The notes below the pieces were generated by a model. It had not been told where the DNA came from. It ran no database searches and saw only the letters and a list, made by a program, of their open reading frames with translations. DNA of 64,000 nt from contig NZ_CP030033.1 of NCBI RefSeq assembly GCF_003611035.1, forward strand, positions 806,001-870,000, in the 5' to 3' direction. The first letter of the stretch is position 1. The number at the start of each line of letters is the position of its first letter. A program made the translations under genes and the position numbers. Below are positions 26,301-40,752 of the stretch, piece by piece. This DNA comes from Cryobacterium soli. Its GTDB lineage: Bacteria > Actinomycetota > Actinomycetes > Actinomycetales > Microbacteriaceae.

Positions 26301-26572
26301 TGGTCGGAGTCTCCGCGATCGACAATCTCACAATCGCCGCGGCGGGCATTCTCGTCGGTCTCGCGGGAGGCCTGGCGACTCTGGCGCTCGTCGGCCCTCG
26401 TATCGCGTCCGGCGGTGGAGCGACGGCCGCCTCACTCGTCGTTCCCTGGCTCGCGGTGACGCTGCTGCCCCTCGGGCTGTTGGGTGCTTTGGCTGTCATC
26501 TCCCTCGGCATCGCCGTGGGGCAGCGGCGGCTGCCCCTCGCCGACCTGTTGCGCACCGGAGCCGACGGATGA
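23399..26572 (+). CDS. FtsX-like ABC transporter permease (probable ATT start)
   Basis: Large membrane permease of about 1057 residues with two FtsX-type modules. An N-terminal helix (about 24-45) and a long extracellular domain precede helices near 270-400. A second block follows (GWFASRAPGRSAGITLIALA), then another extracellular domain and a C-terminal three-helix FtsX module (from LRAEILAATLVTAATSVLLA). The reading frame extends upstream of the first GTG (23483) to ATT 23399, giving SRSGSLRAWLIVLLIRRW before the first helix, as expected for this family. Its stop overlaps the next start (ATGA). It forms one exporter with the next three genes. Confidence 0.85.
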   Translation: MSRSGSLRAWLIVLLIRRWRAQSKLFALVLAVSVIAGTVLTGSLLLVRSAEEAGVRASLASMTADRVAVTVRVLNPGTPVTGTRADIDRATEQAYGAGVDWSSSGWVTSEWVTTAEGVYASLAELDDPAAAATLVAGDWPTSPEGVAMPQTAASSLGLTIGDTFSAAVGERPIAFRVDGLYQADPDSGVFWENDPLAASGNDLNFPEPDRYIFNPVHGIGPLLVARGGVDASGIRPAQLEVVENPTFTAIDAAGLGLLQDRIDDAETGIARGISFPDGTLIIDTEIATALADVTAGLSATREVALIIALILLVVAAAAASAVTRLLIVSRAGELELLTARGASRRQIASAVALDAAVVAVIIAAVSPWGGVLLHATVVRVPPLAAVGLEPWVAPDAWSWLVAAVVAVTVAGLLCLPASMPHRLRRSLPTGTVAVAAGSTVIVLSGLLVWRATAAAPPPGDILLAATPAVLLIATALIGSRLASTAAHPVAALAGRSRGAVAPLVGWFASRAPGRSAGITLIALAVGASVVVLGTAATWQQAVRDTSAVAVGAPTRIAPGPGTSTDKGAAPVIRRDTLLSKFYADAPGDSPAVAVQVLGPDARARSLLDRGPVAAAGGSAVVTELGRTDPEDSGPALEPGTAGVRAEVTFSAPESVEAEVSMVLADRIGVLTVVPLGTVSAGITTVASTDGFPPTGDGATRLVAITMQVRDAAELPDPVSVELSMTGWTAVHQDGTLGEPVPVTDAGQWQGSADGELTDPPVVSVSDSTIRLSAAAQLGTAPITFGAVGWNPRASVAAVIPDALADDLDVLDGARLTGFFSGATVNFTVVGSAATMPGAATVGDLRALEAGLPSLARSTTTIVVDGRALAHHLVQGSAAGSLVDEFWLDEAEAGVSAPVDASVTTSAGVAQRMLEAPLRAEILAATLVTAATSVLLALAGFGARAAAVSRSRRLEAAQLRAVGLSRRGMVGVSAIDNLTIAAAGILVGLAGGLATLALVGPRIASGGGATAASLVVPWLAVTLLPLGLLGALAVISLGIAVGQRRLPLADLLRTGADG

Positions 26573-29295
26573 CCCGGCAACGCGTCCGCTCCGCCGCCGG
26601 AACCGGCGGCGACCGGGTCAGACGTGAGATCGGCGCGGTCGGGGCGTCGGCCCTGCTTGTTCTCCGGCGGGTCCGCACCGACCTGGTCGCTGTCGCGGGA
26701 ATCGCCGGCCTTATCGCCATCACCGCTGTGTTGGCCATGGCGGTCCCGTCACACATCGACACGACACTCGATCGCGCCGCCCGGGAGGCGGTCGCGGCCG
26801 CTGGAGCAGACGCGGACCTGCGGCTGCTCGCCACGACCGGAAACGCGGCGGGAGACAATCCGACCACCGCGGAGCGATTGCTCGAATTCTCGACCGAGGT
26901 TCCCGACCTGTTGCCGACGACGCTCTCCGAGGTGGTGTCGCAGCTGAGCGTCGGCATCCTCGGTCCCGAAGTGGCCGGGCAGAGCATGGTCGGCACCGCG
27001 CGAGTGCGGATCGGTGTTCTCGATCCGGCCGCCACATCTCAGGTCCAGGTGGTCAGCGGCGAACTGCCGCCAGCGGGCACCGACCCCATCCAGACCGTGG
27101 ATCGCTTGCCGGTCGTCATATCGTCGGCTGCGGCCGACGCGACGGCGTTCGCCGTCGGCGACAGCTTCACCGTCGGCGAGGCATCGTCAGACGAGGACAT
27201 CCTGCTCACGGTCGTCGCGGTGGTCGATACGGCCGACCCCTCGGCCCAGGCGTGGACCGACCTGCCCGGGCTCTTCGACCCGCAGGCGTTGACCTCCCAG
27301 GGGGTGCACACAGGCGAGAGGTTCACCGTTCTCACCGATGCCGCAGGGTTCGACCGGGTCTCGGCGCGTTTCCCCGAAACCGCGGTCGGCACCTTGCGGA
27401 CGTCGTTCGATGCCTCCCGATTCGATCTTCAACGTTTCGAACGCGTACGAGAGAGCATCGACGCTCTTGAGACGTCGTCGGCGAGCCTCACCGAAGGCTC
27501 CCCGGTCAGCGTTGCGGTGTCTAGTGACTATGAGCGGGCGTTGGAGTCGTTCCCGGCAGCCGCCGCGGCCGCGCGGGCCCAACTATCGACGCTCGCGGCG
27601 GGCCTGCTCGGTGTGGCGGTTCTGGTCACGGTTCTCGCCAGCACCGCTGTGACGCGCCGCCGGCAGTTCGAGATTGCACTCCTGCGCTCGCGCGGAGCGT
27701 CGCTCTCGCTCATCGTGAGTCACGCGGCGGCCGAGTCCATCGCGGTGACGCTGCTCGGCACGGGCCTCGGTGTCGCGGTGGCTGCCATGCTCGGCTTTCA
27801 CGCCGGCTCCCCGCTGCTGCTGGCTGTCGCCGCCGGCATCTTCGCAGTCACCCCGGTGGCGGGCGCTTGGAGCGACGCTCTCGGCGCACCGTCGGCCCGA
27901 CGCGCCGGCGCTCTTCGTGTAGCCGGCGTATCGGCGCTGCTCGCCACCGCGGTCACCGCAGTGGTGGCGCTGCGCTCGGGCGCCGGCGGGCTCGGCGGCG
28001 ACATCGACCCGCTGTCCCTTGCCGCTCCGGTGCTCTGCGCCGGGGTCGTGGCGCTGGCCCTGGCGCCGCTGCCCACGCTGGTGCTGCGGTTCACCTCGGC
28101 CCTCACCGCTCGCACGCGCGGACCCGCCACGCTCCTCGCCGGCGCGAGCGCACGGGATGGTCGCGCACTCGTGACGCTCGTCGCCCTGACGCTCGCCGTG
28201 AGCGTCGCGGTGACATCGCTCGTGCTCCTGCACACCGTGGCCTCCGGTCAGGAGTCAGCGTCGTGGCGGTCGGTCGGCGCAGACGTTCGCGTCGAGGGGG
28301 CGCCGGATCCGGCCGCGCTCGTACGTGAGTTCACCGACGCCGGCGCAACGGCAGCGGCCGTCACCTACCGCCAAGGTGTGCAGTTGAAGGGCCGCACGGC
28401 AACAACCAGCGCGACCCTGCTCGCCGTCGACGACGACTATGCCGCCCTGCTCTCCGCGCTGCCCGGTACCCAGCCGAGCACGGACGCCCTGTCGGTGCGG
28501 CAGCTGCTGGGCGCGGCCGGCGGCGGGATCCAGGACCCGCTGCCCGTTCTCGCCGACCGGCGTCTGGCCGCTCTGGCCGGCGATGACGGTGCGACTTTCG
28601 ACATCAACGGCGTTCTCGTGCCGGTGACCGTGATCGGCGCGTTCACCGCGACCGAGCCGACGGCAGTGGTCGACCGAACACGTCTCGACGCGTACCTCGC
28701 CGCGAATGTCGACCCCTCGGCGCCCGCCGGGACTTCCACCCAGCCGGTGCCACCGGAAACTGTGCTGGCAATCGGCAGCGGTGCCAGGCCGGCGGCGGGA
28801 TCGGTCGATGAGGCGGATGAGGTCGTTCTGCGCAGCGACGTGGTCGCCCAGCTCCGCGGCGGCGTGCTCGTCGCCGGCGTCGCCTCGGCCACCACCCTGT
28901 CACTCCTCGGCACCGTGCTGCTGGCGCTGCTCGCCCTCCTCACCACCACGGTCATCGGCGTGCGGCGCCGAGGCCGGGTCCTCGCCCTGCTCGGCGCGCT
29001 CGGCGTGCCCAAACGCGCGGGCATCGCTCTCGCCATCGGCGAGCTCGCACCGCTCGTGGTGAGCGGTGTGGTGGGCGGATGCCTCGCGTCCGCCGTGGTG
29101 CTGACCCTGGCGGGCGGCGCCTTCGGCTCTGACCTCCTGGCCGGCGGTGACGCTCCCCTGACGGTTGCAGCATGGCTGCCGCTCGCGGTGGCGGGGGCCG
29201 CGACGGTAGCCCTCGGACTGGCCGTGGCCATCGATACACCACTCTCGCGCCGGGTCAGAACGGCCGACATCCTGCGAACAGGGGAAGACACATGA
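26569..29295 (+). CDS. FtsX-like ABC transporter permease, second subunit
   Basis: Membrane permease of 908 residues, paralogous in layout to the preceding gene. It has an N-terminal helix (VAVAGIAGLIAITAVLAMAV), a large extracellular domain, FtsX helices from about residue 345, and a C-terminal module with the RRRGRVLALLGALGVP coupling loop. The ATG at 26569 overlaps the preceding stop by four bases (ATGA), and its own stop overlaps the next gene the same way. Two permeases plus two ATPases suggest a heteromeric MacB-like or lipoprotein or peptide export system; cargo is unknown. Confidence 0.9.
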   Translation: MTRQRVRSAAGTGGDRVRREIGAVGASALLVLRRVRTDLVAVAGIAGLIAITAVLAMAVPSHIDTTLDRAAREAVAAAGADADLRLLATTGNAAGDNPTTAERLLEFSTEVPDLLPTTLSEVVSQLSVGILGPEVAGQSMVGTARVRIGVLDPAATSQVQVVSGELPPAGTDPIQTVDRLPVVISSAAADATAFAVGDSFTVGEASSDEDILLTVVAVVDTADPSAQAWTDLPGLFDPQALTSQGVHTGERFTVLTDAAGFDRVSARFPETAVGTLRTSFDASRFDLQRFERVRESIDALETSSASLTEGSPVSVAVSSDYERALESFPAAAAAARAQLSTLAAGLLGVAVLVTVLASTAVTRRRQFEIALLRSRGASLSLIVSHAAAESIAVTLLGTGLGVAVAAMLGFHAGSPLLLAVAAGIFAVTPVAGAWSDALGAPSARRAGALRVAGVSALLATAVTAVVALRSGAGGLGGDIDPLSLAAPVLCAGVVALALAPLPTLVLRFTSALTARTRGPATLLAGASARDGRALVTLVALTLAVSVAVTSLVLLHTVASGQESASWRSVGADVRVEGAPDPAALVREFTDAGATAAAVTYRQGVQLKGRTATTSATLLAVDDDYAALLSALPGTQPSTDALSVRQLLGAAGGGIQDPLPVLADRRLAALAGDDGATFDINGVLVPVTVIGAFTATEPTAVVDRTRLDAYLAANVDPSAPAGTSTQPVPPETVLAIGSGARPAAGSVDEADEVVLRSDVVAQLRGGVLVAGVASATTLSLLGTVLLALLALLTTTVIGVRRRGRVLALLGALGVPKRAGIALAIGELAPLVVSGVVGGCLASAVVLTLAGGAFGSDLLAGGDAPLTVAAWLPLAVAGAATVALGLAVAIDTPLSRRVRTADILRTGEDT

Positions 29296-30233
29296 CGCTC
29301 ACCAGCGCACTCTCTCACGGCAAAGCAGTCGAGTACGGGGCGGGAGCACTCATCGCCTGCGACTCCGTGGTGCGGGTCTTCCGTGGCGGCGGCGTCGAAG
29401 TGCAGGCTCTGCAAGGCCTGGACCTTCTCGTGCAGGAGGGTGACATGCTCGCCATCGTCGGCGCGTCAGGGTCGGGCAAATCCACGCTGCTCGGCATCCT
29501 GTCCGGGCTCGACGTGCCGACGGCCGGGAGCGCTCGCGTAGCGGGACACGATCTCACCACAATGCGAGGTGAGGAGCTCGTGCGATACCGCCGCTCGACA
29601 GTGGGATTCGTGCGGCAGCAGTCGTCACGCAACCTGCTGCCCAACCTCACCGCCAGGGAGAACGTCGCTCTTCCCCTGGCGCTGGCCGGCGCGGGGAAGC
29701 GCGAACGCGCGGGGAAAGCCGCCGAACTGCTGGGCGCCATGGGCCTGGCGGACCGAGCCGAACGACGACCGGCGCAGCTGTCCGGGGGCGAGCAGCAGCG
29801 CGTGTCGATCGCCGTCGCGCTGGCCGGCTCTCCTCAGGTGCTGCTCGCGGACGAGCCCACCGGCCAGCTCGACGCCCGCACCGGCGACGAGGTCTTCGCT
29901 GCCCTCCGCGCCGTCAACGAGGCTTTCGGCTGCACGGTGGTGATCGTCACCCACGACGCCACCGTGGCCGGCCAGGTGAGGCGGGCCGTGGCCATCCGCG
30001 ACGGCCGGATCTCCTCCGAAACACTGCGGCGAGACGAGCTGGATGCGGAGGGAGTCGCGACCTCGTCGGAGGAAGAGTTCGCGGTGCTCGATCGTGTCGG
30101 CCGGTTGCAGATACCGAACGAGTTCCGGCATGCCCTGAGCCTCAACGACCGGGTGCGGCTCACGCTCGAGAGCGACCATGTCGGGGTGTGGCCCCAACAC
30201 AGTGCCGCCACGGATGCGGAGGAGGGCCGGTGA
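29292..30233 (+). CDS. ABC transporter ATPase with C-terminal AbrB-like extension
   Basis: ATPase subunit of 313 residues. Walker A GASGSGKST (57-65), signature LSGGEQQR (163-170), Walker B LLADEPTG and the switch histidine in VTHD are intact. After residue 250 comes an extra segment, AVLDRVGRLQIPNEFRHALS followed by LNDRVRLTLESDHVGVWP, which resembles a SpoVT/AbrB swapped-hairpin unit (GRxxIPxEFRxALxLxxxV). Such tails are unusual in LolD/MacB-type ATPases. The start ATG 29292 overlaps the permease stop (ATGA). Confidence 0.92.
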   Translation: MTLTSALSHGKAVEYGAGALIACDSVVRVFRGGGVEVQALQGLDLLVQEGDMLAIVGASGSGKSTLLGILSGLDVPTAGSARVAGHDLTTMRGEELVRYRRSTVGFVRQQSSRNLLPNLTARENVALPLALAGAGKRERAGKAAELLGAMGLADRAERRPAQLSGGEQQRVSIAVALAGSPQVLLADEPTGQLDARTGDEVFAALRAVNEAFGCTVVIVTHDATVAGQVRRAVAIRDGRISSETLRRDELDAEGVATSSEEEFAVLDRVGRLQIPNEFRHALSLNDRVRLTLESDHVGVWPQHSAATDAEEGR

Positions 30234-30922
30234 ACGACGTGCTCGTGGTCGAGAACCTCACCCGCACTTTCCGCACGTCGGCCGGGGACGTGACCGCCCT
30301 CCGGGACGTGTCCTTCCGCGTCCCACGTGGACAGATTGTCGCGCTGTCGGGTCGGTCCGGATCGGGGAAGACGACCCTGCTGAACTGTGTCAGCGGTCTC
30401 GATGTGCCCACTTCCGGCTCCGTGCTTCTCGACGGGCAACCGGTGACCGGGCTCGGCGAGGCGGCCCGCACAGCGATGCGCCGTGACTCGATGGCGTTCG
30501 TCTTCCAGACCTTCGGCCTACTCCCCCACCTGTCGATCGCGGAGAACGTGGGGCTGCCGCTGCGGCTGCGGCGCGAGGACCCCGATCGTCGGGAAGAGCG
30601 GGTGGCTCATCTGCTCGATCTGGTGGGGCTGGGCGGCCGGGGCCGGTCCAGGCCCGATCAGCTCTCCGGCGGACAGCAACAGCGTGTGGCCATCGCCCGG
30701 GCACTGGCCAATTCGCCGCGGCTGCTGATCGCCGATGAACCCACCGGTCAACTCGATGCGCAGACCGGAGTCGCGATCATGGATCTCATTCGGGCCGTGG
30801 TGCACGCCGAGTCGGCCACGGCGCTCATCGCCACCCACGACCAGGCCGTGCAGGGCGCGGCTGACCGCATCCTGCACATCACGGACGGCGCGCTCAGCCG
30901 CGTCGGCCGCCACACGGCGTAG
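30230..30922 (+). CDS. ABC transporter ATPase, LolD/MacB type
   Basis: ATPase subunit of 230 residues with Walker A GRSGSGKTT (41-49), signature LSGGQQQR, Walker B LIADEPTG and switch HD in ATHDQ. The start is GTG 30230, overlapping the previous stop (GTGA) and preceded by GGAGG; a longer reading from 30188 lies within the previous gene. It lacks the AbrB-like tail of its neighbour. It probably pairs with that ATPase to power the two FtsX permeases. Confidence 0.93.
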   Translation: MNDVLVVENLTRTFRTSAGDVTALRDVSFRVPRGQIVALSGRSGSGKTTLLNCVSGLDVPTSGSVLLDGQPVTGLGEAARTAMRRDSMAFVFQTFGLLPHLSIAENVGLPLRLRREDPDRREERVAHLLDLVGLGGRGRSRPDQLSGGQQQRVAIARALANSPRLLIADEPTGQLDAQTGVAIMDLIRAVVHAESATALIATHDQAVQGAADRILHITDGALSRVGRHTA

Positions 30923-30957: not shown

Positions 30958-31563
30958 TCAGCGGTCGGGAGGGGTGCTCACCCAGACAGCCACACACGAT
31001 TCGTCATAGGGGTTGACGTACCAGTGCGGAACTGTGGAGGCGTAGGTGATCGAATCACCGGCCTCCAAGACATGGCGTTCTCCGTCAAGGTAGATGTCGA
31101 TCATTCCGGAGATGACGAGGCCGAACTCTTCCCCGCCGTGCTGGAACGGCGCGGAACTCGTGTTGTGCCCGGGAGGGCTCACGATCCATTGGGCCTCGAG
31201 GAGGCCGCTCCGGTCCGGGGTGAGCAGCTCGTGAATGGCCTCACCGACGGACTCACGGGTGACGCCTTTCAGGTTGCGCCGTGCGGCAGCACGTACAACC
31301 GGCGATGACGGTTCGTCATGGCCCATGAAGAAGCGGCCAACCGGGATCTCAAGGCCGTGAGCCAGTTGCGCGAGCGTTGTGAACGACGGGTTCGCCTTGC
31401 CCCGTTCGATCTGGCTGACGATGGCGGGACTCAGGCCGGCGGTCTCGGCCAGCTGCGCCAGAGTCAGGCCTTTCTCTTTGCGCAAGGAATGCACCAGGAC
31501 ACCGACAGTCGCCAGGAGTCCGTTCAGAGAAGCTGGTGTCACCCCCGCTTTGACTTCGGACAT
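30958..31563 (-). CDS. XRE-family regulator with cupin sensor domain
   Basis: Regulator of 201 residues: an XRE helix-turn-helix (LTLAQLAETAGLSPAIVSQI, about 34-53) joined to a C-terminal cupin barrel (QHGGEEFGLVISGMIDIYLD, about 138-157) that likely binds a small acid or metal. Start ATG 31563 follows GGGAGG; upstream residues in the same frame have no ribosome site. It lies just downstream of, and on the same strand as, the catabolic operon ending at 31655 and is its most likely regulator. Confidence 0.9.
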   Translation of the reverse strand: MSEVKAGVTPASLNGLLATVGVLVHSLRKEKGLTLAQLAETAGLSPAIVSQIERGKANPSFTTLAQLAHGLEIPVGRFFMGHDEPSSPVVRAAARRNLKGVTRESVGEAIHELLTPDRSGLLEAQWIVSPPGHNTSSAPFQHGGEEFGLVISGMIDIYLDGERHVLEAGDSITYASTVPHWYVNPYDESCVAVWVSTPPDR

Positions 31564-31654
31564 CGGCCCTCCCGTGTCGGATGAAGAGTGCCAAGGTGTC
31601 ACTGTCTGCCCGGCCACCCAGATTTTTACCTTCGTGAATTATTTTAGTGCATCG

Positions 31655-31993
31655 TCACCGTGCGGCTTTTGCTTCGTTCAGCCTGGGAGCCACAGCTGCG
31701 ATGAGGTGGTGATCCAGGCCGGTGTTGCCCAGCGGGGCGGCGCCCTGCGGAGAGCCCAGTTCGCTGAAGAACTCGACGTTGGCCACCGTATATCCGGCCC
31801 ATTCATCCGGCACGTCGTCAACGTAGAAGATGGCCTCGACGGGGCAGACCGGATCGCACGCCCCACAATCAACGCATTCCCCCGGGTGGATGTACAGGGA
31901 CCGCTCCCCCTCGTAGATGCAATCGACCGGACAGGCCTCAATGCAGGCTTTGTCCTTGACGTCCACACAGGGCTGAGCGATCACGAAGGTCAT
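31655..31993 (-). CDS. Seven-iron ferredoxin (FdxA type)
   Basis: Small electron carrier, 112 residues. Cysteines at 9, 17, 21, 25 and 40, 43, 46, 50 supply a [3Fe-4S] and a [4Fe-4S] cluster (CVDVKDKACIEACPVDCIYE and ECVDCGACDPVCP). The C-terminal tail is normal for the actinobacterial form. It is the last enzyme gene of the operon, nine bases after the aldehyde dehydrogenase. It may take electrons from the flavin oxidoreductase or the dehydrogenase, since no oxygenase is present nearby. Confidence 0.92.
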   Translation of the reverse strand: MTFVIAQPCVDVKDKACIEACPVDCIYEGERSLYIHPGECVDCGACDPVCPVEAIFYVDDVPDEWAGYTVANVEFFSELGSPQGAAPLGNTGLDHHLIAAVAPRLNEAKAAR

Positions 31994-32002
31994 GACGGCG
32001 AA

Positions 32003-33436
32003 TCACACTCCGGTGTAGACGGTCTTGCCCCAGGTGAAGAAGTCCAGCGCCGTGCGGCCCTGTTCCCTGAACGTGTTCGTCGAGGAGTCTTTGACTCCGC
32101 CGAACGGCACGTTGAGGTCCAGGCCGGCGGTCGGACGGTTGATCTTGATGACGCCGGCCTGCGCACGCTGGGCGAAGTCGGTGGAGCGGGCGAGGCTGTC
32201 GGTGCAGATCCCGGCAGTGAGACCGTAACGCGAGTCGTTGATGGCGGCGAGGCCGGATTCGTAGTCCGGAACCTCCAGGGCGGCGATGACCGGGCCGAAG
32301 ATTTCGTCGCGCACGGCGGGATCATCGTGGGCGATATCCGTGAGCACGGTCGGGGTGAAGTGCAGCCCGTTGTTGGCGGGGGCGCCGTGCAGGGCGGTCG
32401 CTCCGCGCCCCAGCGCATCCCGCACGGCACTCTCGTTCTGGTCCAGCTGGCTGTCACTGACCACGACACCCATCGTGGTTGCGGTGTCGAGGCCGTCGCC
32501 GGGCGAGTAACCCCCGGCTTGGGCCACGAGCTCTTCCAGGAACGCGGAGCGGATGCCCGGGGTGACGTACACCCGCGACGTGGCCGTGCAGGCCTGCCCC
32601 GTGAGCGCGAAGCCGCCGGCGGCGACAACCTGGGCGGCCTTGCGCGGGTCGGCGTCATCCAGAACGAGCACGCCGTTCTTGCCGCCCATTTCGAGCTGCA
32701 CGCGGGCGCGGCGCTCGCTCATGACCTGGTGCAGGCCAAGGCCGACGGCCGTGGATCCGGTGAAGGACAACCCGGCGACACGCCTGTCGCGGGCCAGCGC
32801 CGCACCGATCGTGCGTCCCTTACCGTGCACGATGTTGAGCACGCCGGCGGGCAGGCCAGCGTCTGCCAACGCCCTGGCGAGGTGAGTGGCCGACATCGGC
32901 GTCAATTCGGCCGGCTTGAGCACGACGGTGTTGCCGCTGATCAGGGCGGGGGCGGTCTTCCAGGCGGGAATGGCGATCGGGAAGTTCCACGGCGTGATCA
33001 GCCCGATCACGCCGAGGGCCTCACGGCGGGTGTAGATCGAGGTGTTCGGCAGCCCGCTGGGCAAGACGTCCCCCGTCGGCGCCCAGCCGAGCGATCCGAA
33101 GAAGCGAAGCACGTCGATGGCGCGGGTCACCTCGCCCATGGCCTCGGCGATGGTCTTGCCCTCCTCCCGCACGAGATCCTCGGCAACGGCGCGTTTGCGC
33201 TCCTGCAACAGAGTGCCGGCGGTGATCAGGATGGCGCCGCGGGCGGGCAGCGGCATGGCGGCCCAAGCGGTCTGCGCCGATTCGGCGGCGGCGATGGCGT
33301 CGTCAAGGTCCTGCAGGGTTCCGCTCGGCGAGACGACCGCGACCTGACCGGGTCGTGCGGGGTTCATTCGGTGAATGTCGCTTCCGCCGAGCCATTCGCC
33401 GTTGATCAGGTTCTGGGCAATTGCTGTGCTGTTCAT
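32003..33436 (-). CDS. Aldehyde dehydrogenase (semialdehyde type)
   Basis: NAD(P)-dependent oxidation of an aldehyde to an acid, 477 residues, full length. The catalytic Cys283 (GQACTATSR), base Glu249 (LEMGGKN) and Asn151 (PWNFP) are present. The overall pattern is closest to the 2-oxoglutarate semialdehyde / succinate semialdehyde group, by motif impression only. A DapA-family lyase is encoded two genes upstream; such pairs often convert keto-acid aldehydes to TCA-cycle acids. Confidence 0.9.
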
Positions 33437-33460
33437 GGTGCTTCCTTCTGGTGTCGATGA

Positions 33461-34234
33461 CTAGAGGCTGCGAATCAGGCCGCCGTCGCAGCGCAGGGCC
33501 ACGCCGGTGATGTACGAGGCCGGTCCGCTGCAGAGAAACGCTGCCGCGGCGCCGAACTCGGCCGGGTCGCCGTAGCGACGCGCGGGGATGCTGCTGCGTG
33601 ATTCCTGTTGGATCGCGTCGATGGTGGTGCCGCGCCGTTTGGCCGCGGCGAGATCGAGTTCACCGACACGGTCGGTTTGTATCCGGCCGGGCAGGAGCAT
33701 GTTCACGGTCACCTCGTCCAGGGCCACTTCGGCCGCGAGAGTCTTGAGGTAGCCGGCGAGCGCCGCCCGGCCGATGTTGGAGACAGCCAGGTTGGGCAGC
33801 GGGGCGACGACGCCGCTCGATCCGAGTGCGAGGATGCGCCCCCACCGCCGGGAGCGCATGCCGGGCAGCGCCCGGCTCACCAGGGCGTGTTGCGGCTTGA
33901 CCAGCAGGTCGAAGGCCGACCCGATATCGTCGCTGCTCAACGCCGCCGCCGCCCCCGGTTTAGGTCCTGGCCCGTTCAGCACCAGGATGTCGATCGGGCC
34001 GAAGGCGTTCACCGCCCCGTTGAATGCCGCGTCGATACCTGCCTCTGTGCCGAGGTCGGCTGCGATGCCCACGGCGTGCGGCAGGGTCCCCGCGATGTCC
34101 CTGGCGCGGTCCGCACGTCGGCCGGTGATCACGACGTTCGCACCCTCGGCCGCCAGCGCGGTTGCCACGGCGAGGCCGAGGCCGCCGGTGGAGGCGGCGA
34201 TGAGGGCGGTCTTTCCCGTTAGCTTGAGATCCAT
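33461..34234 (-). CDS. Short-chain dehydrogenase-like protein lacking the catalytic Tyr and Lys
   Basis: SDR fold of 257 residues with the cofactor motif STGGLG (15-20) and a C-terminal CDGG. The serine position is kept (GSSG, 138-141), but where YxxxK is expected the sequence is SNIGR (152-156). This divergent FabG-like subgroup is known but its chemistry is unclear; it may be a non-redox enzyme or a scaffold. The ATG overlaps the lyase stop (TGATG), so translation is coupled. Confidence 0.85.
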   Translation of the reverse strand: MDLKLTGKTALIAASTGGLGLAVATALAAEGANVVITGRRADRARDIAGTLPHAVGIAADLGTEAGIDAAFNGAVNAFGPIDILVLNGPGPKPGAAAALSSDDIGSAFDLLVKPQHALVSRALPGMRSRRWGRILALGSSGVVAPLPNLAVSNIGRAALAGYLKTLAAEVALDEVTVNMLLPGRIQTDRVGELDLAAAKRRGTTIDAIQQESRSSIPARRYGDPAEFGAAAAFLCSGPASYITGVALRCDGGLIRSL

Positions 34235-35160
34235 CAGTTCCTCCCGGGATATGCGGTGGCGGCTTCGCGCAGGTGAATGAGCATCGACTCGCGCAGGCTC
34301 TCCGGATACTCGGCGGCAGGGGGCCGCACACCGGATTCCTTGATCAGCCCGCGCTGGCGAAAGCACTCCTTGCGCAGGGCCAGGGCGATCGTGGGCTGCT
34401 GCTCGAAGTTGATCAGCGGCAGGGCCGGCAGCAGAGCGTCGCGCGCCGCCTCGTACCCCGAGTCCGTCCACGCGGTCACACAGGCGATGAGGGCCTCCGG
34501 GTAGGAGAATCCCGTCATCGCCCCGGCGGCGCCGGACAGCAGCTCGTCGAGTAGCCCCTGACCGCCCAAACCGCCGAAGACTGGAATGTCCAGAGCCGCG
34601 GTGAGGGTGGCGATGGCCACCGGGGTCGGGGGCGCCTCGGCTTTGAGGGCAATCACGAACGGGCAGGACGTGGCCACCGAGATCAGCGCCGGTGTCGGGA
34701 TGGCCACCCCGCTGGCACGGGGATAGTCCTGCAGGACGATGAAGGCGCCGGTGGCCTCATGGATGGCCTGCAGGTGCCGGGCGACGACTCGAGGGTTCGG
34801 GGAATTGACCTGCACCATCACCGCGACGATTCGGTCGCCGGCCGCTGACTGCGCGGCCGCCACCTCCTCGATCGCCGGCTGGGTGGCCAAGGCGGAGATG
34901 CCGACGACAAGAGGGAGGGTCGTGGATTCCGTCACGATCTCGAGCACGAGCTCTCGCTCCGCCGCGGCGAGCGCGGCAGCTTCGCCGAAGACTCCGAGCA
35001 CGGTCAGCCCGGTCGCGCCGATGGCTTCATAGTGCTCGGCCAGCAGAGCGAGACTGTCCACGTCCACGTCGAAGGTGCTGCCCTGCAATGGCGTCGCGAG
35101 CACGCCCCAGACGCCGGAGGCGAGGGTGCGGGGCACCGGCGCGACCTGCTGCCCGGTCAC
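34234..35160 (-). CDS. DapA-family (class I) lyase/dehydratase
   Basis: Schiff-base TIM-barrel enzyme of 308 residues. Lys173 (ALKAEAP) is positioned as the Schiff-base lysine and Tyr146 (LQDYP) as the proton relay. The family includes keto-acid aldolases and dehydratases (KDG aldolase, 5-keto-4-deoxyglucarate dehydratase, NanA). The start is GTG 35160, overlapping the crotonase stop (GTGA). It could cleave or dehydrate a 2-keto acid formed by the preceding enzymes. It is not the lysine-pathway DapA, judged by context. Confidence 0.85.
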   Translation of the reverse strand: MTGQQVAPVPRTLASGVWGVLATPLQGSTFDVDVDSLALLAEHYEAIGATGLTVLGVFGEAAALAAAERELVLEIVTESTTLPLVVGISALATQPAIEEVAAAQSAAGDRIVAVMVQVNSPNPRVVARHLQAIHEATGAFIVLQDYPRASGVAIPTPALISVATSCPFVIALKAEAPPTPVAIATLTAALDIPVFGGLGGQGLLDELLSGAAGAMTGFSYPEALIACVTAWTDSGYEAARDALLPALPLINFEQQPTIALALRKECFRQRGLIKESGVRPPAAEYPESLRESMLIHLREAATAYPGRN

Positions 35161-35954
35161 TTGCCGGGCCAAACGGGTCGCCGCTTCTCTTGGAACGCCA
35201 GAACACCTTCGGCCGAGTCGCTGCTGTCGAGGGCCTCCATCAGGGCGGGCAGCCGAACCCGGCGGGCGTCCTGAGCGGAGAGGTGCATGGTCTGGGTCAC
35301 CATCTGCTTCACAGCCCGCACAGACGTGGGGGCGCAGGCGAGGATCTGCTGGACCCAACGGTCGACTGCCGCGTCCAGTTCGGCGGCGGGTATCACCTCG
35401 TTGACCAGACCCAGCGCCGCCATTTCGGTGGCCGGGGCCCTGCGCCCGGTGAGGAGCAGCCCCATGGCCTGCGTGTAGGGGATTTTGCGCACGAGTTGGC
35501 TGATTCCGCCGTCGAGGGCCAGGCGTCCCACCCGCGGTTCGGTCAGGCCGAACTGGGCGGATTCGGCCGCGACGACGATGTCGGCGCCGAGCACCATCTC
35601 CATGCCGCCGCCGAGCGCATAACCGTTGACGCGAACGATGACGGGGACATCCAGGGTGGTGCGCAGGCTGAGACCGCCGAAGCCGTTCGGGTCGAGGTCG
35701 GCCCAGTACTGCAGGCCGGTCTTGTCCACCGCTGCGGCCGACATGTCGGCACCGACGCAGAAGGCGCGGTCCCCGGCGCCGGTCAACACGACGACGCGGA
35801 TGTCGCGGTCGTTCTCGATCTGGTCCCAGATCTCGTTCAGCCGGTGCGTGGTGGCCTCGTCGACGGCGTTCATCACCTGCGGGCGGTTGATGGTCACGGT
35901 GGCGACGTGGTCAACGATGCTCAGAACCACCTCGTCTTCCAGCACCACGCTCAT
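35157..35954 (-). CDS. Enoyl-CoA hydratase/isomerase family protein
   Basis: Crotonase fold, 265 residues, full length. The oxyanion-hole segment FCVGADMSA and the region GGGMEMVLGADIVVAAESAQ with its glutamate are present, as is LTEPRVGRLALDGG. It should act on the CoA ester made by the CoA-transferase encoded just upstream. Its start overlaps the transferase stop (ATGA). Hydration versus isomerisation cannot be told. Confidence 0.92.
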   Translation of the reverse strand: MSVVLEDEVVLSIVDHVATVTINRPQVMNAVDEATTHRLNEIWDQIENDRDIRVVVLTGAGDRAFCVGADMSAAAVDKTGLQYWADLDPNGFGGLSLRTTLDVPVIVRVNGYALGGGMEMVLGADIVVAAESAQFGLTEPRVGRLALDGGISQLVRKIPYTQAMGLLLTGRRAPATEMAALGLVNEVIPAAELDAAVDRWVQQILACAPTSVRAVKQMVTQTMHLSAQDARRVRLPALMEALDSSDSAEGVLAFQEKRRPVWPGK

Positions 35955-37144
35955 CGCAGCACGCCCAGCTCCTGCAGGCGGGCGATGGCCGCGGCGTCGT
36001 AGCCGTTTTCCAGCAGCACTTCAACGTTGTGCTCGCCGAGGCGCGGGGCGCTGCGGCGGATGGTCGGCGGGGTCGCCGACAGGCGAATGGGGGCGTTGAG
36101 CATACGCACGGTTCCCACGGATGGATGCTCCACTTCCACGATCATGTTGTTCGCCGTGGTCTGCTCGTCGTCCAGGGCCTGCTCCAGGGTGTGCACGGGA
36201 GCGTTGAGCAGCCCCTCGCTTTCGAGTCGCTCGCTCCAGTACGCCGTGCTGTTGGTGGCGATCTTGTCGCGGAAGATCCCCTGCAGGACCGGCTTGTGTT
36301 CGAACTGCTGCTCGAGCGTGGCGAATTCGGACCGCAGGCTCAGGTCCTCGTCGAGTTCGAGGGCCAGCGAAATGTGCCTGAGCGGATCCGGGGTGAAGCC
36401 GCCGACCATGGCGATGGCGCCATCCGTGGTCGCGTAGACCCCGCTGAGCGGCATCGCACCCCAGTTGACCTCGTAGCCGCGGTTGAGCTGCATGCACGCC
36501 TCCTGCATCTGCATGTGCAGCATGGAGTCGTACATGGTGACCTCGACCTTCTGGCCGACACCGGATTCGTCGCGGGTGCGCAGGGCCAGCAGGATGCCCT
36601 GCATCAGGTGCATCCCGGTCGTGTAGTCGCACAGTGTGGTCGGGTACACCGAGAGCGGTGAGTCCGCGGATTCACGCCGCCACATCACACCCGAGTAGGC
36701 CTGGGCGATCACGTCCTGGCCGCCCTTGTGTGAGTACGGGCCTTCGGTGCCGAATCCGGTACCGGATGCCCAGATGAGGCCGGGGTTGCTCTCCTTCAGT
36801 TCGTCGTAGCCGAAGCCCATCCGCTCCATCACTCCGGCCCGGAAGTTGCTCACGACGACGTCAGCGTCGACCAGGAGTTGGCGCAGGACCTCGCGCCCCT
36901 CCTCCTTCCGGGTGTCGATGGAGAGGCTGCGCTTGTTGCGGTTGATCGCCAAGAAGATCGGGTTGTCCTGGCCGTCCTTGTCGGGGAAGGAGTTGCGGGA
37001 GATATCGCCCAGGACCGGTCGTTCGACCTTGATGATGTCGGCGCCGTAGTCACCGAGCAGTTGGGTACAGCTCGGCCCCATGTATACCTGGGTGAAGTCG
37101 ACGATGGTGATGCCGTGCAGCGGCATCGTGGCGGCGGCACTCAT
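35951..37144 (-). CDS. CaiB/BaiF-type (family III) CoA-transferase
   Basis: Transfers CoA between carboxylic acids, 397 residues, cytoplasmic. Motifs include VDFTQVYMGPSCTQLLGDYG, VSNFRAG and the likely catalytic Asp173 (LCDYTTG). Start ATG 37144 overlaps the flavoenzyme stop (ATGA). Its presence shows that the substrate or an intermediate is activated as a CoA thioester without ATP. Confidence 0.92.
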   Translation of the reverse strand: MSAAATMPLHGITIVDFTQVYMGPSCTQLLGDYGADIIKVERPVLGDISRNSFPDKDGQDNPIFLAINRNKRSLSIDTRKEEGREVLRQLLVDADVVVSNFRAGVMERMGFGYDELKESNPGLIWASGTGFGTEGPYSHKGGQDVIAQAYSGVMWRRESADSPLSVYPTTLCDYTTGMHLMQGILLALRTRDESGVGQKVEVTMYDSMLHMQMQEACMQLNRGYEVNWGAMPLSGVYATTDGAIAMVGGFTPDPLRHISLALELDEDLSLRSEFATLEQQFEHKPVLQGIFRDKIATNSTAYWSERLESEGLLNAPVHTLEQALDDEQTTANNMIVEVEHPSVGTVRMLNAPIRLSATPPTIRRSAPRLGEHNVEVLLENGYDAAAIARLQELGVLR

Positions 37145-38505
37145 ACTTGGGCCAGCGCATCCGCGTCGATGCTGGCGTTCGCGGAGGGGATGTCGCCCGG
37201 GTCGGCACCGTGCTTGTGCATTTCGCGTTGGATATCGGCGGCCGGCACGTCGCGCACCAGGACGCCCTGGTCCAGGGCGAGTGCCGCGGCGGCACCGACG
37301 GCCTGTCCCATGGCCATGCAGGGCGGGATCTCGCGGGACATCTTCTGCGCCTCCGGAGTGGCGGAATAGTGCCGGCCGGCGACGAGCAGCTGGTCGACCT
37401 CCTTGGGCAGCAGGGACCGGTAGGGATAGTAGTAGTCGCGACCGCGGGCGACGGAGTCGGCGAAGTGGCGACGCGACGTGACGTCTTCCTTGGTCATGAC
37501 GTATTCGCCCTGCAGGAGCCGGGTCTGCCGCACGCCCATCTGCTGGGCGACGTCCACGATGTAGGTGTTCTCGAAGCCGGGCAGGTTGGCCCTGACGAAA
37601 TCGACCGCTTCGGTGATGCGGTCGCGGGCTGCGAATTCGGCCTTCGTCATGTCCTCGGGGTCGACGCCGTCGAACCCGGTCATGTGCGGGGCGTTGCACC
37701 ACACCACGCCGGGAATGGGCGTCTTCAGCCACCACAGTTCCCACGCGCCGCCAAGCAGGCGTTTCACCTGACGGTTGATTGCGCGCGCTTCTTTGGGGTG
37801 TTCCTGTTCGTACAGTTCTGCGGCGACGGTGTCGACGCCGCCGAGCCGGAAGACGAGCGTGGTGAGATAGCTGTCGTGGGCGTAGCTGGCCCCGGCGCGG
37901 GAGGCGACGTCGATGTCGCCGGTGGTGTCGATGACGATGTCGGCCATGAACGCCTGCGGGCCGGACTTGGTTTCGCAGATGACGCCCTTCATGACGCCGT
38001 TGTCGACGATGGGCCGGGAGAACCAGGAGTGCAAGCGCAGATTCACGCCCGCCTCGCGGACAAGGTCGTTGGAGACCCGTTTCCAGCCGTCAGGGTCGAA
38101 CGCAGCCGCGTAGCAGATCGGCTTCGGGTTGCTGTGCGAGTGGAAGTCGAAGAGCCCGAATCGGCCCCACTTGTTCCATGTGTCGGTTGAGGCGTGGCGG
38201 TCCTCTTCCGGCGGCACCACGGCCAATCCGATGCTCTCCAGACGGTCGACGTACTCGCTGACGATTCCGGTGACGGTGATCTCCGGGCCGTTGATCATGT
38301 CGTCCAGTACCAGGACCATTCCGCCGGAGGCGAGACCGCCCAGAGCGGAGTAGCGCTCCAGCAGAGTGACGCTGGCGCCGCTTCGCGCTGCGGTGACGGC
38401 CGCGGCAACGCCGGCGGGGCCACCGCCGACCACGAGGATGTCGGAACGGGAGATGACCGGTGCCGTGAGGTCGGCCGTGGTGGTGCGCAGGTCGAGAGTA
38501 GTCAT
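37141..38505 (-). CDS. FAD-dependent oxidoreductase (FAD_oxidored family)
   Basis: Flavoprotein of 454 residues. The Rossmann motif GGGPAG (27-32) with Glu50 at the end of strand 2, and the conserved DTTGDIDVA segment, place it in the FAD_oxidored family (often called FAD-dependent oxidoreductase or hydroxyproline/dehydrogenase-like). Start ATG 38505 follows AGGA. It probably oxidises or dehydrogenates the imported acid before CoA transfer. No membrane anchor is seen. Confidence 0.88.
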   Translation of the reverse strand: MTTLDLRTTTADLTAPVISRSDILVVGGGPAGVAAAVTAARSGASVTLLERYSALGGLASGGMVLVLDDMINGPEITVTGIVSEYVDRLESIGLAVVPPEEDRHASTDTWNKWGRFGLFDFHSHSNPKPICYAAAFDPDGWKRVSNDLVREAGVNLRLHSWFSRPIVDNGVMKGVICETKSGPQAFMADIVIDTTGDIDVASRAGASYAHDSYLTTLVFRLGGVDTVAAELYEQEHPKEARAINRQVKRLLGGAWELWWLKTPIPGVVWCNAPHMTGFDGVDPEDMTKAEFAARDRITEAVDFVRANLPGFENTYIVDVAQQMGVRQTRLLQGEYVMTKEDVTSRRHFADSVARGRDYYYPYRSLLPKEVDQLLVAGRHYSATPEAQKMSREIPPCMAMGQAVGAAAALALDQGVLVRDVPAADIQREMHKHGADPGDIPSANASIDADALAQV

Positions 38506-38515
38506 GAGATGGTCC

Positions 38516-39814
38516 TTACTTTCCAACGAACAGGCCGTTGGAGCGGCGAGCGAGCAGGTAGAAAATGATGCTGAGGATCGAGAGCACCGCGACGTAGACC
38601 GGGAAGACCCAGTTCAGGTCGACGGACTGCAGCCAGACGAGCAGGTACGAGGCGGTGCCGCCGAACAGGGCGACGCCGATGCCGTAACCGAGCGCAACGC
38701 CTGTCCCGCGGCAACTCTTGGGCATGAGGGAAGAAGAGACGACGTTGTAGAGCGTCATGTTGAGGACCAGCACGATCGATCCGCCGAGGAGCACCGCGGC
38801 GAAGCCGACGATGCCCGGCTGCACGTACAGCAGCATCAGGAACACAGAGGGGATCGCCAGGATGCGGGTGACCAGGAACCATTTGGACATGGCCTTGCCG
38901 TCAACGAGCTTGCCGATGATCCAGCTGCCGATGACCAGGACGACACCGAGCACCGTGGTGAGGGCGAAGACGATGGTGGGGTCTTCCTTGAAATTACCGC
39001 GGGCTGTGCTGGGCAGGCCCACGTTCCAGGCGTAGTTGTACGCCTGTGCTGCGCCCACGACGAAGATGATGGCGAGCACGCTGAGCCAGTGCTTGCGCAC
39101 GTCGGTCCAGACCTTCTTCGGCGTGTTGGACGCGAGTTCATCGGTCGACATCGTCTCGGGGAGGGAGCGGCGCAGATAGACCACGACGAGGCCGAATACC
39201 GCGCCGATGACGAACGGCACTCGCCAGCCCCAGTCGGCCATCACTTCGCCGCCGAGCAGCAGGCTGGTGAGGAAGCTGGTGAGTGATGCGAGCAGGATGC
39301 CGAGGTTGACGTAGAACGACATCAGCCCGGCGACCAGGCCCTCGCGTCCGACCGGGGCCAGTTCCACCGCGTGAGCCGTGGACAGCGGCGCCTCGATACC
39401 GGTGGAGACGCCCTGCACCACGCGGCAGAGCAGCAGGATGATGCCCGCCCAGGAGCCGATCTGATCGTAGGTCGGGGCGACGGCGATGATTGCCGTGGTG
39501 GTCGCCATCATGGTGATGGACATGAGCATGACCCGGCGCCGGCCGATCCGGTCCGCGAGCGTGCCGAGAAGGATCCCGCCCAGCGGACGGAACGCGAACC
39601 CGACCGCGAAGACGGCGAGGGCGTTCAGGGTGGCCGTCAGCGGATCCTCGGAGGGGAAGAATTTCGGACCGATGAATGCGGAGAGGAGACCGAAGATCAT
39701 CCAGTCGTACCACTCCAGCGTGTTTCCGAGGCCGAGGCCGAGAAGCCCCCGACGAACGTCCGGAGTGAGCCGCCGGGGCAGGTGCACAGTGTCTGTAACG
39801 GTGGTGCTGAGCAT
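38516..39814 (-). CDS. MFS transporter, metabolite:H+ symporter (MHS) type
   Basis: Twelve-helix importer of 432 residues. GNTLEWYDWMIFG near the N-terminus, GGILLGTLADRIGRRRVML and PETMSTDEL are hallmarks of the MHS group (citrate, ketoglutarate, proline-betaine and shikimate carriers). It is the first gene of the operon, 10 bases before the flavin oxidoreductase. It implies that the substrate is a small carboxylic acid or betaine. Confidence 0.92.
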   Translation of the reverse strand: MLSTTVTDTVHLPRRLTPDVRRGLLGLGLGNTLEWYDWMIFGLLSAFIGPKFFPSEDPLTATLNALAVFAVGFAFRPLGGILLGTLADRIGRRRVMLMSITMMATTTAIIAVAPTYDQIGSWAGIILLLCRVVQGVSTGIEAPLSTAHAVELAPVGREGLVAGLMSFYVNLGILLASLTSFLTSLLLGGEVMADWGWRVPFVIGAVFGLVVVYLRRSLPETMSTDELASNTPKKVWTDVRKHWLSVLAIIFVVGAAQAYNYAWNVGLPSTARGNFKEDPTIVFALTTVLGVVLVIGSWIIGKLVDGKAMSKWFLVTRILAIPSVFLMLLYVQPGIVGFAAVLLGGSIVLVLNMTLYNVVSSSLMPKSCRGTGVALGYGIGVALFGGTASYLLVWLQSVDLNWVFPVYVAVLSILSIIFYLLARRSNGLFVGK

Positions 39815-40197: not shown

Positions 40198-40752
40198 TCA
40201 GCGCGCAGCAAATGAGCGAAGGAAGTGGCCCACGAGCCGGCGCGCGCCAGCCTCGGGGTCACTCGAGGTCAGACTGGCTGCGCCTGCGTTCGCTTCGATC
40301 AGCAGCACCACGTCGTCCCACCTCACGTCCGACGACGCGGCACCCTCCCGCTGCGCCCGTTCGATGATCCGCTCCACCGCCGTTCGAGCGGAATTTCTCT
40401 CCGCTTCGAATGTGTTCCCCTGCAGGAACGCGCGCACGACCAACTCGGCGCACGCCCTGTCGTGGGCCTGTTGAACGCAGGATTCTTCGAGGAGGGTGGA
40501 CAGCGCCTGCCAACCATCCTCTGCCTGCTCGGCCGCCTGGATCGCGCTCAACCACCAGCCCAGCTGGCGCGCGAAGACAGCGTCGACGAGCGCATCCTTT
40601 GTCGGAAAACGGCGAGACAGCGTGGCCGCCCCCACCCCCGCGCTCCTCGCGACGTCCGACATCGGGACGGCGATCCCCCGGGTTGCGAACAAAGCTTCGG
40701 CAGCGTCGATGATTCGCTCCCGGTTGTCGCGCGCATCCACTCGGAGTTCCAT
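40198..40752 (-). CDS. TetR-family regulator
   Basis: Repressor of 184 residues with an N-terminal TetR helix-turn-helix (FATRGIAVPMSDVARSAGVG, then ATLSRRFPTKDALVDAVF) and a helical ligand domain. It is divergent from the quinone oxidoreductase gene, with two AAGTGGAA-starting palindromes between them. It should repress both genes and release on binding a quinone or electrophile-like compound. Confidence 0.9.
   Translation of the reverse strand: MELRVDARDNRERIIDAAEALFATRGIAVPMSDVARSAGVGAATLSRRFPTKDALVDAVFARQLGWWLSAIQAAEQAEDGWQALSTLLEESCVQQAHDRACAELVVRAFLQGNTFEAERNSARTAVERIIERAQREGAASSDVRWDDVVLLIEANAGAASLTSSDPEAGARRLVGHFLRSFAAR

Follow-up and report, generated by a model that had tools for sequence, protein, structure and literature searches.

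In a 64,000-nucleotide stretch of the Cryobacterium soli genome (assembly GCF_003611035.1, contig NZ_CP030033.1, positions 806,001 to 870,000; the window), eight genes on the minus strand, from 39814 to 31655, form a compact operon for which we tentatively propose a CoA-dependent breakdown of a nucleoside-type acid, a base carrying a C5 carboxylate, to the free base and 2-oxoglutarate. The substrate would most likely be a nucleoside 5′-carboxylate, that is, a C5 sugar acid on a purine- or pyrimidine-type base. The final steps are the firmer part, because a DapA-family protein carries dehydratase residues and an aldehyde dehydrogenase (ALDH) resembles semialdehyde dehydrogenases, so that L-2-keto-3-deoxyarabonate (L-KDA) is probably converted to 2-oxoglutarate at the exit. 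The catabolic gene set is of a familiar general kind with potentially new chemistry. Its genes and the regulator that follows them are, with coordinates in the window:

38516..39814, minus strand: MHS/MFS carrier, a metabolite:H+ symporter for uptake (Pfam MFS)
37141..38505, minus strand: FAD-dependent oxidoreductase, the first enzyme gene (Pfam FAD_oxidored PF12831, 299.5 bits)
35951..37144, minus strand: family III CoA-transferase (Pfam CoA_transf_3)
35157..35954, minus strand: crotonase (Pfam ECH_1) with the hydratase-type Glu pair E119 and E139
34234..35160, minus strand: DHDPS/DapA-family protein (Pfam DHDPS) of the L-KDA-dehydratase type (Q144, K173, E175)
33461..34234, minus strand: short-chain dehydrogenase (SDR)-family protein (Pfam short-chain dehydrogenase) with Ser-Asn-x-x-Arg in place of Tyr-x-x-x-Lys
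32003..33436, minus strand: ALDH (Pfam Aldedh)
31655..31993, minus strand: FdxA-type ferredoxin (Pfam 4Fe-4S; NCBIfam NF045480)
30958..31563, minus strand: XRE-cupin regulator at the 3′ end of the operon (ATG at 31563; alternative GTG at 31617)

All eight reading frames were open in an open-reading-frame check. By their coordinates the FAD/CoA-transferase, CoA-transferase/crotonase and crotonase/DapA junctions are 4-base overlaps, the last with the GTG start chosen for DapA, which overlaps the crotonase stop; DapA and SDR share a single base, and the remaining intergenic gaps measure 10, 24 and 9 bases, 24 being the widest within the set. The XRE-cupin gene follows the ferredoxin gene on the same strand after 91 bases (ATG) or 37 bases (GTG). 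The coordinates agree with the first-pass annotation, which had described eight co-directional, mostly overlapping genes with an XRE-cupin gene just downstream, and the domain content supports its view of a compact uptake-and-degradation operon with CoA transfer and hydration or dehydration. Promoter and terminator scans stayed at chance level (1 promoter-like site against 0.9 expected; 2 terminator-like sites against 4.1).

To follow the operon in other genomes we built a profile from 20 FAD-protein sequences and scanned the GTDB genomes with it, which returned 206 confirmed matches; only the best 80 were kept, and counts over these 80 loci, whose titles are Actinomycetota throughout, therefore describe the closest relatives. 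The FAD gene is present in all 80 by construction. The other genes were scored by local tblastn with the window proteins at set identity thresholds, and absence means absence within the stretch examined, often 21 kb and sometimes ending at a contig edge, so that some missing genes may reflect contig ends. CoA-transferase, crotonase and XRE genes each occur in 80 of 80 loci, MHS in 76, DapA in 76, SDR in 75, ALDH in 69 and ferredoxin in 41. CoA-transferase, crotonase, DapA, SDR and ALDH genes lie together beside the FAD gene in 67 of the 80 loci and are colinear in 66 of those 67, an association that exceeds chance; the co-conservation in other genomes that had been proposed as a check is thus seen in the actinobacterial loci. 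Within the 67 full sets, 64 add MHS and XRE genes and 41 carry MHS, XRE and ferredoxin genes. The XRE-cupin gene is 3′ of the operon in the window and in L013 and L060; in the remaining 78 loci its place is upstream of the FAD gene. The nearest locus in the named collection is that of Cryobacterium sp. Y50, whose FAD protein is 96% identical. At E ≤ 1e-100 an ortholog of the FAD gene was found in 2 of 396 phylum-sampled genomes, the window's own among the 2, and at E ≤ 1e-20 in 1 of 36 other genomes of the genus; the operon is patchy and rare overall.

The core extends beyond the Actinomycetota. A plasmid search with the FAD protein gave 63 records at E ≤ 1e-30, and the 14 neighbourhoods that were read (L093-L105 and L109) comprise 12 proteobacterial and 2 actinobacterial loci (L098, L104). 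Roseibium has an ABC importer, FAD enzyme, CoA-transferase, crotonase, ferredoxin, DapA, ALDH and a deaminase in a row, and Chelatococcus, Paracoccus, Rhizobium and Ensifer carry near variants of this cluster, while Caballeronia and Paraburkholderia have the ABC importer, FAD enzyme, CoA-transferase, crotonase and ferredoxin only, in the stretch examined. An ABC importer serves all 12 proteobacterial loci and replaces the MHS carrier in the 4 of 80 actinobacterial loci that have none, where its binding protein is 45-49% identical to that of the rhizobial importer; in profile scans these binding proteins match NMT1/SsuA models. Narrow literature searches, the sole basis of our statement on novelty, found no described match for the gene set; the first-pass annotation knew of no described pathway with exactly these genes.

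The case for the exit starts with the DapA-family protein, whose best matches are 3dz1 and the L-KDA dehydratases 3fkk and 7c0c. The residue counts given here and below cover the window and loci L013-L104, with identity filters for SDR and ALDH, and leave L115 outside throughout. The Schiff-base lysine (K173; Lys171 in L-KDA dehydratase) is present in 85 of 85 DapA sequences, the aldolase Tyr position holds Gln (Q144 in the window) in 81 of 85, and Lys-x-Glu (K173-x-E175), which aligns with 3fkk and 7c0c, is likewise found in 81 of 85. For the Azospirillum enzyme, PMC9795676 lists Gln143 (replacing Tyr), Lys171, Glu173 and Glu200, and reports no conservation of Glu173 among other DHDPS/NAL enzymes. 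The aligned residues indicate that DapA has the signature of a dehydratase and not a C-C-cleaving one; of the two possibilities raised earlier for this step, C-C cleavage or dehydration, the signature favours dehydration. A deaminating DapA of the hydroxyproline type was also considered and set aside, the residues fitting L-KDA dehydratase better. The ALDH scores highest, at 498.2 and 456.3 bits, with the NCBIfam models for 2,5-dioxovalerate and 2-oxoglutarate-semialdehyde dehydrogenases, ahead of a third model at 344.3. In L062, L074 and L115 the ALDH found is 42-45% identical to an L099 ALDH annotated as NADP-type, which itself has no good match to the ALDH models used.

Such an exit would be shared with the Weimberg and L-arabinose non-phosphorylative pathways, whose DHDPS-family dehydratase residues (Gln, Lys-x-Glu) recur in the window beside an ALDH closest to the semialdehyde dehydrogenases. 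However, the eight proteins of the window include no sugar dehydrogenase, lactonase or IlvD-type dehydratase; they offer a CoA-transferase, a crotonase and a FAD enzyme instead, and one dehydratase residue, Glu200, is not evidently kept. 

The evidence that the C5 acid is attached to a base comes from deaminase genes, which were detected by clustering unassigned ORFs around the loci and by profile scans. A cytidine/blasticidin-S-deaminase-like protein is encoded in 20 of the 80 actinobacterial loci, 17 times downstream of an MHS gene oriented against the FAD gene, and an adenosine-deaminase-family protein in 11, which gives a deaminase of either type in 31. Two further kinds appear in the proteobacterial clusters, a dCMP-deaminase-like protein in Roseibium and Chelatococcus and, in rhizobia, an ATZ/TRZ amidohydrolase related to 8-oxoguanine and 5′-deoxyadenosine deaminases; 9 of the 12 proteobacterial loci have a deaminase, the exceptions being L095, L101 and L102. 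Genome-wide, 30 genomes hold 109 matches to the adenosine-deaminase family, the 11 local ones included, from which about 0.9% per 21-kb locus would be expected by chance. In L065 and L067 a deaminase gene directly adjoins genes of the operon. In L115, from another class of the phylum and with a FAD protein 62% identical to ours, a cytidine-type and an adenosine-deaminase-family gene overlap by 4 bases inside the operon and are followed by an MFS gene, again with a 4-base overlap, and then by an SDR gene. In the adenosine-deaminase-family proteins a Glu takes the place of the Asp of the HxHxD motif, and the cytidine deaminases have a missing or modified Asn-x-Glu, several with basic residues close to it. 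We take the HxHxD Asp and Asn-x-Glu to be the usual ribose or sugar contacts of deaminases, and their alteration would suit a charged 5′ end or a modified sugar.

In a rival explanation the operon degrades a free L-pentonate such as L-ribonate or L-arabinonate, with CoA-transferase and crotonase replacing the sugar-acid dehydratase and the deaminases as hitch-hikers. Such a route would have the identical DapA/ALDH exit to 2-oxoglutarate, would account for a window that has no deaminase, and would suit MHS carriers, which typically take acids. It does not sit well with the recurrence of deaminases of four kinds, whose genes adjoin those of the operon in L065 and L067 and in L115 show 4-base overlaps both between themselves and with the following gene. 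Moreover, next to its cluster Ensifer PDNC004 encodes a distinct L-arabinonate dehydratase together with a DapA-family protein, so a free pentonate would not need CoA, and we consider this explanation unlikely.

If instead the base itself were the point of attack, the substrate would be an amino-N-heterocycle carboxylic acid whose ring carboxylate is CoA-activated before the crotonase hydrates and opens the ring. The deaminase pockets seem unlike nucleoside-binding ones, and importers of this kind are typical for anions, both of which this model would explain. Yet no amidase or hydantoinase occurs among the annotated or typed cluster genes, the rut genes of Rhizobium ACO-34A aside and with not all ORFs typed, and the adenosine- and cytidine-type deaminases held together in the L115 operon make a single substrate less likely; such a pair suggests a class of substrates that carry bases, not one heterocycle. 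We regard this model as very unlikely. Slightly less probable still is a base-linked open-chain C5 acid, N-CH2-(CHOH)3-COOH, for example an oxidised ribityl compound, from which the dehydratase-type DapA would free the base directly and give the semialdehyde. By our own derivation it requires no reduction step and results in the L-isomer, and the DapA residues support its exit equally, but the known ribityl compounds, flavins and lumazines, have no amino group that deaminases attack. Degradation of the thiamine pyrimidine (HMP), a candidate prompted by the NMT1-type importer together with the deaminases, was set aside, since a C5 oxo acid could not arise from its carbon and the clusters showed no ring-opening amidase among the genes annotated or typed. 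To our knowledge none of the kojic acid, pterin, riboflavin and cytokinin routes fits all the genes.

Both hydratase-type glutamates of the crotonase, E119 and E139, occur in 93 of 93 aligned sequences; this Glu pair forms the catalytic residues of enoyl-CoA hydratase, and the residues indicate a crotonase of the hydratase type. A family III CoA-transferase adjoining a crotonase with both Glu is shared with carnitine dehydration by CaiB/CaiD, though the CaiB and CaiD equivalog cut-offs are missed widely here (130.7 against 413 and 173 against 500). The best NCBIfam model for the CoA-transferase, formyl-CoA transferase, reaches 252.9 bits against a cut-off of 442, and that identity was rejected; the top scores are of the oxalate, mesaconate and glutarate types. 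The clusters of L055, L057, L061 and L086 contain or adjoin a further family III CoA-transferase gene, whose product shares 51-52% identity with that of the window.

These top scores favour a non-heterocyclic poly- or hydroxycarboxylic acid akin to tricarballylate or itaconate, the substrate class proposed in the first-pass annotation. Tricarballylate utilisation by TcuABC shares an MHS-type carrier and a flavoprotein with the window, to which the window adds CoA chemistry, but the Tcu models fail widely (TcuC 184.3 bits against a cut-off of 445; TcuA 27.7 against 369), so that the earlier comparison does not hold and tricarballylate is rejected. Itaconate degradation uses a CoA-transferase, a hydratase and citramalyl-CoA lyase, of which the window shares the first two; it has a DHDPS-family dehydratase and an ALDH, and by Pfam no citramalyl-CoA-lyase-type domain among its eight proteins, which sets itaconate aside. 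With the deaminase association in relatives counted as well, such an acid is decidedly unlikely. The earlier proposal of a small polycarboxylic or hydroxy acid does fit the C5 acid part of the substrate preferred here; what it misses is the link to base deaminases.

The FAD enzyme would oxidise the substrate, and the ferredoxin, which passes the actinobacterial FdxA model NF045480 (171.7 bits against a cut-off of 125), would serve as its electron carrier. An AlphaFold model of the FAD protein built with 20 close sequences had a mean pLDDT of 59 and was not used, and the neighbourhood of a Sporomusa relative was uninformative. A Variovorax relative (L110 7024-14002; 34% identical) lies amid alpha/beta hydrolases, a TIM-barrel protein, shikimate dehydrogenase and a gluconolactonase-like gene; this is a different cluster with lactonase-like genes, and it suggests sugar-like substrates for the wider FAD family.

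The SDR-family protein may be linked to the dehydratase. Ser-Asn-x-x-Arg (152-156) replaces Tyr-x-x-x-Lys in 80 of 80 aligned sequences, taken as the window's own and those at least 50% identical to the window's or the L099 SDR, so the SDR without Tyr/Lys noted earlier is real and conserved; the subgroup also occurs in rhizobial clusters. Across 94 loci (L013-L105 and L109) it accompanies the dehydratase-type DapA in 79 of 81 loci and the aldolase-type (Tyr) DapA in 0 of 5 (Fisher p = 6e-7, though the loci are related). Within the Rhizobiaceae the proportions are 3 of 3 and 0 of 3 (p 0.1), each group including close relatives. A connection of the SDR with the dehydratase step is probable, and we read the pattern as a protein that prepares the dehydratase substrate and that the aldolase can do without.

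In the scheme that we favour, a nucleoside 5′-carboxylate would be imported, or made by the FAD enzyme with ferredoxin, and its base deaminated where a deaminase exists, as in many relatives. The CoA-transferase would activate the carboxylate to a CoA thioester, and the crotonase would remove the 3′-OH in a 3-hydroxyacyl-CoA dehydration, as in the carnitine CaiB/CaiD pair. In a D-ribonucleoside H4′ and O3′ lie on one face, which suits the syn elimination of crotonases. The dehydrated thioester would then collapse to the free base and 4-hydroxy-2,5-dioxopentanoate, the SDR-family protein may help to convert the 2-keto-3-deoxy C5 acid to L-KDA, DapA would dehydrate L-KDA to 2-oxoglutarate semialdehyde, and the ALDH would yield 2-oxoglutarate. 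By our own derivation D-ribose with a carboxylate at C5′ yields the L-isomer, matching the L-specific dehydratases; the L-specific enzymes covered by PMC7374468 are DHDPS-family members, and its D-specific enzymes fall in the FAH family. Where DapA is of the aldolase type, ALDH oxidation of the same intermediate would lead to pyruvate and glyoxylate. A 2′-deoxy substrate would give the semialdehyde at once, with no need for DapA or SDR, and L064 and L074, which have the ALDH and lack DapA and SDR, show the pattern expected of it. The proposed substrates are compounds that nucleoside oxidase (EC 1.1.3.28) would presumably produce, a likeness to the FAD enzyme in proposed reaction only. Substrate, FAD reaction, base release and SDR reaction are all inferred, and the active-site assignments are indicated by residues.

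Several observations weigh against this scheme. Its boldest part depends on a deaminase that the window itself lacks: the five PF00383 genes of the genome all lie outside the window, and none of the operon's neighbours is a deaminase. Likewise 49 of the 80 actinobacterial loci, the plasmid loci L098 and L104 and 3 of the 12 proteobacterial loci show none. The genome-wide control for cytidine-type genes is the window's own genome alone, and the cytidine-type cases are not independent, 17 of the 20 coming from Arthrobacter and its near relatives with a single gene arrangement. The altered contact residues of the deaminases fit a non-nucleoside substrate as well. The rut pyrimidine-utilisation operon that lies divergent from the cluster in Rhizobium ACO-34A does speak for a base-bearing substrate, but only this 1 of the 12 proteobacterial loci read has such a neighbour. 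For a plain nucleoside an MHS carrier would be unusual, and if the imported compound is already an acid the FAD step has no assigned job. At the exit, the position of Glu200 holds Gln201 or a gap, which counts against strict membership with L-KDA dehydratases, E206 close by being conserved in 81 of 85 sequences, and the ALDH scores below both equivalog cut-offs (770 and 750 bits). The missing catalytic Tyr and Lys make an ordinary reductase role for the SDR doubtful; one of the 8 loci in 94 without DapA, L088, keeps the SDR, and two of the five aldolase-type loci are close Rhizobium relatives and not independent. Finally, no ALDH is present in the examined stretch of 5 of the 7 loci without DapA and SDR (L067, L093, L101-L103), so L064 and L074 may simply be incomplete and the 2′-deoxy argument is only suggestive.

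Taken further, the scheme would amount to a third route of nucleoside catabolism beside phosphorolysis and hydrolysis, with oxidation of the ribose at C5′ before it leaves the base, CoA activation and crotonase-triggered glycosidic cleavage in place of a nucleosidase, feeding 2-oxoglutarate via L-KDA from ribo substrates or via the semialdehyde directly from 2′-deoxy ones; in this full form we consider it doubtful. If true, the N-glycosidic bond would be broken in a CoA-dependent manner and DNA and RNA turnover linked straight to 2-oxoglutarate. The core of FAD enzyme, CoA-transferase and crotonase is common to Cryobacterium, Arthrobacter, Streptomyces, Rhodococcus, Rhizobium, Ensifer, Roseibium, Paracoccus and Caballeronia, and the narrow literature searches gave it no assigned substrate, which is a gap in the view of soil and marine carbon use. 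The assignments would also give a functional anchor to many annotations of 'FAD-dependent oxidoreductase', 'CoA transferase' and 'dihydrodipicolinate synthase family'.

Some neighbouring genes complete the description. In Ensifer PDNC004 (L109 1-2206 and 4589-7017) the cluster is adjoined by the L-arabinonate dehydratase and DapA-family gene and by an SDR-RraA-DapA set, which may act on the same intermediate; L100 has a similar set, whose RraA-like protein matches PF03737. The MFS_1 gene that overlaps the adenosine-deaminase-family gene in L115 (14330-15730) possibly exports the freed base. In the window, a TetR-family regulator gene (40198..40752, minus strand) lies upstream of the operon, with at most a putative link to it. 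On the other side, a large membrane-protein ORF and two ABC-ATPase-like ORFs, read by eye from their translations, converge on the operon from the plus strand (26569-30922).

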